Below, in pieces: positions 4,799 through 6,219 of a stretch of 43,172 nt of DNA; within the stretch, counting starts at the first letter, position 1; each line of letters begins with the position of its first letter. The notes beneath the pieces were generated by a model, which was given only the letters and a program-made list of their open reading frames with translations, had not been told where the DNA came from and searched no databases. Both the position numbers and the translations under genes were made by a program. The DNA comes from Cytophagales bacterium (GTDB lineage: Bacteria; Bacteroidota; Bacteroidia; Cytophagales; Spirosomataceae): contig JAAFJP010000043.1 in NCBI GenBank assembly GCA_013298125.1, forward strand, positions 1 to 43,172, given 5' to 3'.

Positions 4799-5968
4799 TC
4801 AACAAATCCCCAAAGCCTTACGAATTCGTAAAATCGCAGCCTCAAAAACCAAAACTTCTGAACAAAGTGATGTACGAATATAGCCATCACCAGCCGTTCC
4901 GAAGATACCTCCTGGGGTGATAAAAACGCCTGATTTTTCTAAAATTTCGTCTGATAATTCGTAGCCTGTTGAATATTTTGCAGGAATTTTTGCCCAAACA
5001 AACATTCCCGTTTGATTTACATCATACTGACAATCAAGCAATTCCATCATTTCAAAAACTTTTTGCTGACGTATTTTATAGGTTTTATTCAATTCATCAA
5101 ACCAAGATTTATCATTTTGTAAAGCCTGAACCGCTGCCATCTGCAAAGGCAAAAACATTCCCGAATCCATGTTGGATTTGAACCTTAAAACTGGATTGAT
5201 AAACTCCGCTTTACCTGCCAACATTCCAATCCGCCAACCTGCCATATTGTGAGATTTTGAGAGAGAATTTAACTCCATCGCCACTTCTTTCATTCCCTCT
5301 ACCGAAAAAATACTTTGTGGGTCGTCGTTCAAGATAAAACTGTATGGATTGTCATTGACTATCAGGATGTTATGAGTCGAAGCAAAATCTCTTAATTCCT
5401 CAAAAAAGCCTTTCGTAGCCTTCGCACCCGTAGGCATATGAGGATAATTAACCCACATGAGTTTTACTTTTGATAAATCTTTTTTGGCTAATCCCGCTAA
5501 ATCTGGTAACCAACTGTTAGCTTCTGAGAGGTCGTAGTCCACCACTGTCGCCCCAGTCAAAAGGGATGCCGCACGATAAGTTGGATAGCCAGGATTAGGT
5601 ACTAAAACTTCATCGCCCGCTTCGAGATATGCCATCGAAATATGCATAATTCCCTCCTTAGAGCCAATCAGAGGCAATATTTCATTAACTGGATTCAGTT
5701 CAACTCCGTAGGCATTCTGATAAAAACTTGCCATGCCCTCACGTAGGGCGGGTATGCCTACGTAGCTTTGGTACGCATGATTTTTAGGATTTTGGGCAGC
5801 CGAAGCCAATGTCTCAATCGTGGAGTCGGAAGGTGGAAGGTCGGGGCTACCGATGCCAAGATTCAGGACATCAATGCCCGAAGCACGCATTTCGGCTATT
5901 TGTTTTAGTTTGGTTGAGAAATAATATTCTTGCACCAAATTCATTCGGGAAGCGGGGGAGATGGTCAT
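4799..5968 (-). CDS. PLP-dependent class I/II aminotransferase, probably aromatic amino acid related
   Basis: A 389-residue fold-type I aminotransferase. Visible motifs are LNLGIGSPDLPPS (35-47), the cofactor-binding segment with D206 and Y209 in IVNDNPYS, the Schiff-base lysine K238 in SLSKSHNMAGWRIG, and a C-terminal YIRTSL whose Arg should bind the substrate carboxylate. The usual NPTG loop reads NYPHMPTGA. By family alone it could be an aspartate, alanine, methionine, diaminopimelate or aromatic aminotransferase. The upstream leader peptide with five consecutive Tyr codons and an attenuator (6054-6219) points to tyrosine or phenylalanine synthesis. A similar enzyme commonly sits in the aromatic operon of this phylum. 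Here it stands alone. An inverted repeat begins exactly at the start codon (5968-6042). Confidence 0.92.
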   Translation of the reverse strand: MTISPASRMNLVQEYYFSTKLKQIAEMRASGIDVLNLGIGSPDLPPSDSTIETLASAAQNPKNHAYQSYVGIPALREGMASFYQNAYGVELNPVNEILPLIGSKEGIMHISMAYLEAGDEVLVPNPGYPTYRAASLLTGATVVDYDLSEANSWLPDLAGLAKKDLSKVKLMWVNYPHMPTGAKATKGFFEELRDFASTHNILIVNDNPYSFILNDDPQSIFSVEGMKEVAMELNSLSKSHNMAGWRIGMLAGKAEFINPVLRFKSNMDSGMFLPLQMAAVQALQNDKSWFDELNKTYKIRQQKVFEMMELLDCQYDVNQTGMFVWAKIPAKYSTGYELSDEILEKSGVFITPGGIFGTAGDGYIRTSLCSEVLVFEAAILRIRKALGIC

Positions 5969-6042
5969 TAGTTACTGGTTATTGGTTATTAGGGATTGGA
6001 GAAGCATCAGAATTTTTCTAATAACTAATAACCAGTAACTAA
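5968..6042. repeat. Fold-back repeat, TTAGTTACTGGTTATTGG family
   Basis: The arm 5968-5992 (TTAGTTACTGGTTATT...) is complementary, with minor differences, to 6018-6042. The arms enclose about 25 bases. The element occupies the leader of the aminotransferase mRNA between attenuator and start codon, and its inner arm touches the start codon itself. Related sequence occurs at 38117-38310. Confidence 0.8.
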
Positions 6043-6053
6043 TAACTCAAATA

Positions 6054-6086
6054 AATAAAAAAAGCCAACTCAAATTGAGTCGGCTT
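6054..6086 (-). terminator. Attenuator terminator upstream of the aminotransferase
   Basis: On the minus strand AAGCCGACTC (6077-6086) pairs with GAGTTGGCTT (6062-6071), a 10-bp stem with one G-U pair and a 5-base loop, followed by a T run (6052-6061). It lies between the leader peptide stop (6130) and the gene start (5968). Bases 6070-6077 of the hairpin are also perfectly complementary to 6109-6116, giving an alternative antiterminator pairing. Confidence 0.85.
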
Positions 6087-6129
6087 GTGTATTGTTAGTT
6101 CTTTATTCCAATTTGAACACACCCGACTA

Positions 6130-6183
6130 TCACTGACCGTAGTAGTAATAATAAGTTAGATATGTGTTGTTTGTCAATTTCAT
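6130..6183 (-). CDS. Tyrosine-rich leader peptide (attenuation)
   Basis: A 17-codon frame, MKLTNNTYLTYYYYYGQ followed by TGA. It contains six Tyr, five of them consecutive (codons TAT TAT TAC TAC TAC). Its ATG lies four bases downstream of the -7 box (6188-6195) of a promoter with ideal spacing, so the message is leaderless or nearly so. A terminator (6054-6086) and a competing 8-bp pairing follow before the aminotransferase. Ribosome stalling at the Tyr run when charged tRNA-Tyr is scarce would favour the antiterminator. The architecture is seen directly; the regulation is inferred by analogy with known leader-peptide attenuators. Confidence 0.82.
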   Translation of the reverse strand: MKLTNNTYLTYYYYYGQ

Positions 6184-6187
6184 TCCT

Positions 6188-6219
6188 CAAAGGTAGGGCG
6201 AAAAATTTATTTTGGCAAA
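6188..6219 (-). promoter_or_regulatory. Promoter of the Tyr leader and aminotransferase
   Basis: On the minus strand TTTG (6216-6219) lies exactly 20 bases before TACCTTTG (6188-6195), a full match to the Bacteroidota -33/-7 arrangement. It begins two bases downstream of the recX stop. Transcription should start within a few bases of the leader peptide ATG at 6183. Confidence 0.75.

Follow-up and report, generated by a model that had tools for sequence, protein, structure and literature searches.

A candidate tyrosine-specific ribosome-mediated transcription attenuator upstream of a likely aromatic aminotransferase gene in the Cytophagales

We describe an element that is very probably a tyrosine-specific, ribosome-mediated transcription attenuator controlling a likely aromatic aminotransferase; we put the probability of this reading at roughly 0.9. 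The element lies in a contig of 43,172 nucleotides from a Cytophagales bacterium, which was analysed at its full length and is called the window below. The nearest named relatives of the window (an Arcicella MAG, a Cytophagales MAG and A. rosea) place it within Arcicella or close to it. The locus appears to combine the features of a classical attenuator: a leader rich in cognate codons, an intrinsic terminator, an antiterminator with one arm in common with it, a geometry centred on the leader stop codon, and a pathway gene downstream. The leader, the terminator, the competing helices, the co-evolution of these helices and the gene context were all computed here.

The attenuator locus is preceded by a RecX-like gene, and the first long ORF downstream of the aminotransferase is on the opposite strand. 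The features, in the direction of transcription, are as follows.

6188–6219, minus strand: Bacteroidota-type promoter recognized from sequence, with −33 element TTTG at 6219–6216, a 20-nt spacer and −7 box TACCTTTG at 6195–6188.
6130–6183, minus strand: leader ORF MKLTNNTYLTYYYYYGQ, 17 codons, with ATG at 6183 and stop codon TGA at 6132–6130.
6158–6165, minus strand: segment 1, the putative protector arm, formed by leader codons 5ʹ of the Tyr run and predicted by folding to pair with 6124–6117.
6139–6153, minus strand: five putative regulatory Tyr codons, TAT TAT TAC TAC TAC.
6117–6128, minus strand: segment 2 (AGTCGG-G-TGTGT), the predicted 5ʹ arm of the antiterminator, which begins 1 nt past the stop codon.
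6078–6090, minus strand: segment 3 (ACACA-AG-CCGACT), predicted to pair alternatively with segments 2 and 4.
6057–6086, minus strand: intrinsic terminator, with an 11-bp stem (6086–6062), a loop of 3 nt and a U-tract to 6057; folding energy −15.4 kcal/mol.
4799–5968, minus strand: aminotransferase gene (PF00155, E 2.7e-57), the predicted target of control.

A preliminary description of this DNA had listed a TTTG-N20-TACCTTTG promoter, a gap of four bases between the −7 box and the ATG, 17 codons, five consecutive Tyr codons and TGA, and every one of these is found in the sequence. The terminator hairpin with its T run is also there, but its stem has 11 bp and not the 10 given. One further Tyr codon precedes the run of five. 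Between 5900 and 6400 we observed one terminator-like site, against 0.3 expected from shuffles. Five TAY codons in a row occur twice in the 5.85-Mb genome, and the reversed control pattern occurs seven times. By count alone, then, the Tyr run is not rare; the evidence is its conservation.

Where does the leader transcript begin? We take the start point of transcription to be about 3 nt downstream of the −7 box. With the TAnnTTTG box as the −7 element, we expect the transcript to begin at, or 1–2 nt upstream of, the leader AUG. If the start point is as we place it, the message would be nearly leaderless, and such messages are rare in the phylum. In two published studies, leaderless messages account for only 5.5% in F. 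psychrophilum (PMC9723704), and 5ʹ UTRs shorter than 10 nt for ~3.7% in B. thetaiotaomicron (PMC7366714).

In 222 genomes of the family we found 61 orthologues of the aminotransferase at ≥66% identity, from 10 genera that include Arcicella, Flectobacillus, Pseudarcicella, Siphonobacter and Aquirufa. Each of the 61 is preceded by a Tyr-rich leader, with 4–8 Tyr codons, and by a terminator-like hairpin; loss of the Tyr codons in relatives, which had been put forward as an observation that could refute the idea, was not seen. The longest Tyr run is five codons in 16 leaders, four in five, three in 35 and two in five. The TAnnTTTG box ends 4 or 5 nt from the leader ATG in 53 of the 61 orthologues and 18–20 nt from it in six, and no such box was found upstream of the leader ATG in the other two. 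The terminator stem is imperfect in three cases: L002 and L006, both from Arcicella relatives, have a single internal mismatch, and L129 has a bulge; the terminator ends of these three were set by hand, the automatic search having failed or picked another hairpin. No aromatic leader was found before 15 aminotransferases of about 50–56% identity (L016–L030).

Comparison of the leaders points to the pairing of 6128–6117 with 6090–6078, that is, of segment 2 with segment 3, as the conserved antiterminator. It replaces the pairing proposed in the preliminary description, between 6109–6116 and 6070–6077. The window does contain that 8-base complement, yet its role as antiterminator was rejected: a complement of at least 6 nt is found in two of the 61 leaders, and the exact 8-mer in one of the 61, with none among the 60 other leaders. 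Loss of this pairing in close relatives had been named as a second potentially refuting observation, and it is indeed lost, but it is not the pairing that is conserved. The last part of segment 3 lies within the 5ʹ arm of the terminator. Taken together, helices 1:2, 2:3 and 3:4 correspond, as predicted structures, to the classical attenuator set.

The 61 loci were thinned to 26 and then, with L115 dropped, to 25 representatives, and 15 lineages were compared. In every one of the 25 representatives, the antiterminator starts 1–7 nt downstream of the first stop-codon base. The native helix was stronger than the mean of cross-lineage arm swaps in 14 of 15 lineages for 1:2, 14 of 15 for 2:3 and 12 of 15 for 3:4, against 6 of 15 and 7 of 15 for the control pairings 1:3 and 2:4. 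Swapped arms were as strong as native ones in 18% (1:2), 24% (2:3) and 27% (3:4) of cases. When one arm was shuffled with dinucleotide content preserved, the antiterminator helix stood out at p<0.05 in 19 of 25 representatives and the terminator helix in only 8 of 25, a low score that we attribute to very short arms shuffling poorly.

Covariation was scored on alignment A1 for the antiterminator. Its score of 0.221 was matched by 3 of 500 shuffles and was above all six slid registers, and 11 cells were changed on both sides, a figure equalled in 6 of 500 shuffles; four of the six pairs have two-sided changes, which 101 of 500 shuffles also reach. The combined 1:2 and 3:4 structure had a covariation score of 0.256, reached by none of 500 shuffles, and its seven two-sided pairs are not above the slid registers (6–9). 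The antiterminator is shorter in Aquirufa type I. In six Aquirufa loci (L014, L120, L121, L123, L124 and L127), the end of the leader ORF carries a hairpin of its own, GCAGGA...TCCTGC or a G-U variant of it, which is possibly a polymerase pause hairpin.

The codons 5ʹ of the Tyr run, which often read N-T-Y-R, recur as well as the run itself. The protector helix would explain this, since these codons make up its predicted arm opposite segment 2. For A. rosea and Flectobacillus the protector pairing is AACACA-U-ACCG with CGGU-UGUGUU; in Siphonobacter and others the letters differ on both arms. Across the 15 lineages the protector helix was stronger than synonymous recodings of the leader (Stouffer z −4.9), a value obtained on rerunning the test after the segment had been redefined once; the first, narrower segment, cut before the N-T-Y-R codons, had scored weakly (mean z −0.7, with p<0.05 in 5 of 25). 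Within Arcicella the helix was no better than the recodings (mean z −0.5; window z 0.12), so the protector helix of the window rests on its relatives.

Recurrence of N-T-Y-R outside the run could also reflect selection on the peptide itself. TnaC is a known case of nascent-peptide arrest that senses tryptophan, and a Tyr-rich peptide might likewise stall the ribosome in response to free tyrosine or another small molecule; the RNA switch would then be identical. We consider this highly improbable: the N-T-Y-R codons are the very ones that make up the arm pairing with segment 2, and the length of the peptide, the length of the run and the residues that follow it all vary. In addition, whether other leaders of the pathway carry Tyr or Phe depends on their operon, as sensing of tRNA charging codon by codon predicts.

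How would a tyrosine attenuator of this design operate? RNA polymerase would start at or just before the leader AUG, with a ribosome close behind it. When charged tRNA-Tyr is short, the ribosome would stall in the Tyr run and cover segment 1, leaving segment 2 free; segment 2 would then pair with segment 3, the terminator would be blocked, and the aminotransferase would be transcribed. When tyrosine is plentiful, the ribosome would reach the stop codon and sit on segment 2, and segments 3 and 4 would form the terminator. Without translation, segment 1 could pair with segment 2, and the terminator would then be favoured. The start site, stalling, termination, the response to tyrosine and the substrate of the enzyme are all predictions.

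To estimate these states we folded the transcript as far as the terminator loop, keeping the ribosome footprint single-stranded; this gives an equilibrium estimate and not kinetics. The mean probability of segment 3 being paired with segment 2 was 0.75 with the ribosome on the Tyr codons, 0.01 with the ribosome at the stop codon and 0.59 for ribosome-free RNA; the corresponding values for the window were 0.68, 0.12 and 0.59. With a downstream footprint of 9 nt instead of 12 nt, the means for the stalled, stop-codon and ribosome-free states were 0.77, 0.06 and 0.59. The stalled value exceeded the stop-codon value in 25 of 25 representatives, and the ribosome-free value in only 18 of 25. For the stop-codon state, masking of segment 2 partly builds in the expected outcome, which is the point of the arrangement: by the computed geometry, the antiterminator arm lies under a ribosome at the stop codon and stays clear of one on the Tyr codons, in all 25 representatives. 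The untranslated state is uncertain, because the Arcicella protector is not above its recodings, the ribosome-free probability is 0.59, and the stalled value is higher in 18 of 25 representatives only. Overall, the earlier suggestion of ribosome-stalling attenuation that senses tyrosine gains comparative support from the 61 of 61 leaders and the co-evolving helices.

A terminator upstream of a gene lowers expression without any sensor, and the Tyr codons could in principle be decoration on a constitutive partial terminator, a Rho-linked element or a ligand riboswitch that overlaps a small ORF. We find this scarcely credible in view of Tyr-rich leaders at all 61 loci, three mutually exclusive, co-evolving helices placed at the stop codon, and a leader composition that tracks the pathway. 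Nor did any Rfam family, Bacteroid-trp (RF01692) included, match above its gathering score in the window or in six related loci; we take T-box to be among the Rfam families, and RF01692 to sit before trp genes. RF01692 is listed as a cis-regulatory RNA of the Bacteroidetes, and in this it resembles the element described here (PMC2864571).

Two other Rfam results were set aside. Membership of Phe_leader (RF01859) was rejected at 19.9 bits against a gathering score of 55; the weak match covers 6056–6168, and the likeness is that of an aromatic amino acid leader attenuator, with a leader that in RF01859 presumably holds Phe codons. The top Rfam hits of all were microRNA models on a palindrome at 5962–6048, and are an artefact. 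This palindrome consists of TAATAACCAATAACCAGTAACTAA units and abuts the start codon of the aminotransferase. One unit has 15 copies in the genome (≤3 mismatches, both local copies included), some of them in inverted pairs, and its reversed pattern has none. The palindrome looks like a dispersed inverted repeat, and it could affect translation of the enzyme.

What is the enzyme that such an attenuator would control? Sequence families leave this ambiguous. Pfam assigns gene 5968–4799 to the class I/II aminotransferases, and the closest solved chain, 6l1l, is an aminotransferase. The best NCBIfam match is to LL-diaminopimelate aminotransferase (PRK09276, E 1.6e-121), an enzyme of lysine synthesis before which a Tyr attenuator would be misplaced, and the tyrA gene of the window species sits behind a gene that by eye resembles dapF. 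We nonetheless regard a lysine enzyme as highly improbable. The PRK09276 match scores 405.9 bits against a cut-off of 507, and none of the 25 models listed (of 66), the other 24 included, reaches its cut-off. Gene context also argues against it: within 2.5 kb of the best 80 of 595 homologues, taken from named or MAG genomes, tyrA lies directly downstream in 73 and pheA upstream in 56. The combination of pheA before and tyrA and DAHP synthase after is found in 35 of these 80, and no such neighbour in three, two of which are at a contig edge.

Since gene context decides where sequence families are ambiguous, the enzyme is most likely an aromatic (prephenate or 4-hydroxyphenylpyruvate) class I aminotransferase of tyrosine synthesis. 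The role in tyrosine or phenylalanine metabolism suggested by the preliminary description is thus borne out by comparison, with tyrA next door in most of the best homologues.

Within the clade that bears the leader, tyrA directly follows the aminotransferase in 8 of 11 genomes searched, among them A. rosea, Flectobacillus, Pseudarcicella, Siphonobacter and Aquirufa. In the genome of the window and in G007 it lies elsewhere, and in G017, where the contig ends behind the aminotransferase gene, tyrA was not found. We looked for a Tyr leader before the distant tyrA of the window's genome and found none, so in this genome the aminotransferase alone would be under tyrosine control. The close Arcicella relative G007 carries a pair of tyrA genes (L182 and L196), one of them in a neighbourhood like that in the window species and the other at a different place; no Tyr leader was found upstream of either in the stretch covered.

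Related leaders are found elsewhere in the Bacteroidota. When 390 genomes of the order were searched with a covariance model of the element, 33 gave matches, 13 of them in the family of the window and 20 outside it. Of the 20 outside matches, 17 loci were opened. Fourteen of them have a Tyr-run leader before a phenylalanine 4-hydroxylase (PF00351 at the same places), and at L223 a leader with both Phe and Tyr precedes a DAHP synthase that carries a chorismate mutase domain; the matches at L221 and L222 are probably due to chance. Hydroxylase leaders were found in six further genomes, from 7 of 30 loci (three already known) and 2 of 20 regions; two other ORF matches in the 20-region scan, one each in L267 and L276, look like chance. 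In all, a Tyr-run leader and terminator before phenylalanine 4-hydroxylase is recorded in other Cytophagales families at L211–L220, L224–L227, L239, L241, L242, L251, L269 and L276.

Phenylalanine hydroxylase makes tyrosine, and enzymes of this kind are usually regarded as degradative. A search for tyrA in 20 genomes with a hydroxylase leader gave a strong match in 10 and none or a weak one (E above 1e-5) in the other 10, and we draw no link between such leaders and a lack of tyrA. The hydroxylase of the window's genome has no aromatic leader upstream, and follows a gene fragment that resembles homogentisate dioxygenase (E 7.7e-8, far below the cut-off). Breakdown in the window's genome and synthesis elsewhere would fit this neighbour and the missing leader.

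Operons that begin with pheA were scanned in Chitinophaga, Hymenobacter, Saprospiraceae, Sphingobacterium and Bacteroidales (within L045–L108; for example L050, L047 and L059). One or two aromatic leaders with a terminator precede 48 of the 55 operons, 15 of which have two, and the scan found no leader in the other seven; the same scan found none in 425 regions upstream of other genes and none on the 55 reverse strands. Among the 15 tandem pairs, 11 have a −7 box no more than 60 nt before the first leader and none has one before the second, as if tandem leaders share one transcript; for single leaders the figure is 23 of 33. The operons with Phe/Tyr leaders, which are often tandem and in some cases include Trp, have the gene order pheA-aminotransferase-tyrA-aroG.

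Aromatic leaders are not universal. None was found before pheA at 16 loci within the family of the window, or before DAHP synthase in 13 genomes. Nine homologues outside the leader-bearing clade lack an adjacent upstream pheA, and eight of these have no aromatic leader. The ninth, L096, is from a Lentimicrobium MAG (Bacteroidales), in an operon with no pheA nearby; its leader is Tyr-rich (MYYYAYYYLNG...), lies ~210 nt upstream of the aminotransferase, and is possibly independent of the Cytophagales one.

The composition of these leaders appears to follow the product of the operon: almost only Tyr ahead of aminotransferase or tyrA, Tyr with some His ahead of the hydroxylase, and Phe with Tyr, in some cases also Trp, ahead of pheA operons. 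Over the most aromatic stretch of eight residues, F/(F+Y) is 0.015 for 38 distinct aminotransferase or tyrA leaders, 0.037 for 16 hydroxylase leaders and 0.588 for 63 pheA-operon leaders. Over whole peptides, the 38 aminotransferase or tyrA leaders hold 20 Phe and 18 His, and the 16 hydroxylase leaders, a set that leaves out L239, L241 and L242 and keeps one of the identical pair L224/L225, hold 83 Tyr, 34 His and 16 Phe. Trp is present in 20 of the 63 pheA-operon leaders.

Attenuators that respond to Trp, His, Phe, Leu, Thr and Ilv are well known. The classical attenuators of E. coli and Salmonella, as listed in one source, are those of trp, his, leu, thr, ilvGMEDA, ilvBN and pheA; they share with the present locus a leader ORF with cognate codons, alternative helices I:II, II:III and III:IV, and a terminator before pathway genes (PMC1183508). 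That list has no tyr operon, whereas the codons here are Tyr (PMC1183508). Two further differences are that here the leader AUG is at or 1–2 nt from the expected start of the transcript, and that the phylum is Bacteroidota. The locus would work like a classical attenuator, with tyrosine specificity and a predicted response to tyrosine.

Attenuators before operons with tyrA were predicted in 2005, reportedly by Song et al. The accessible portion of that work places them before Agrobacterium tumefaciens hisHb > tyrA and Vibrio aroAI > tyrA, and before Bacteroides thetaiotaomicron pheA > hisHb > aroAI-aroQ > tyrA (Table 7, PMC1173090), the last being similar in gene content. The same portion does not name the leader peptide, the codons or the amino acid sensed, and if some of these predictions turned out to concern tyrosine attenuators, the present case would be less new (PMC1173090). 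For F. psychrophilum, of the same phylum, leader-peptide attenuation of amino acid operons, the same mechanism, has been proposed from transcript data, with no tyrosine leader named in the part available (PMC9723704), and short leader ORFs are noted in the available part of the B. thetaiotaomicron study (PMC7366714). In the open-licence literature and among Rfam matches we found no tyrosine-specific classical attenuator; the attenuation survey of Lopatovskaya et al. 2010 could hold such a case. Sinorhizobium trpL, a leaderless message that opens directly with the start codon of its leader peptide, is a comparable case; it differs in having Trp codons and in belonging to the Alphaproteobacteria.

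For the organism, the attenuator would place in a pathway an enzyme whose role is ambiguous from sequence families. For the phylum, we lean towards a broader view, in which Bacteroidota control much of the Phe/Tyr branch by phylum-wide attenuators, homologous or convergent, whose leader amino acids follow the gene content of the operon: Tyr for tyrosine-only operons (an aminotransferase, whether or not tyrA accompanies it, or a phenylalanine hydroxylase that serves synthesis), Phe and Tyr with pheA, Trp in some, and tandem pairs that act in series on one transcript as a logic gate. If such a set exists, Tyr-specific attenuators would extend the ribosome-mediated class to a new specificity. The rule suggested by these leaders is that the amino acid served by an operon can be read from its leader codons; extended to the rest of the order, it suggests that some phenylalanine hydroxylases serve tyrosine synthesis.
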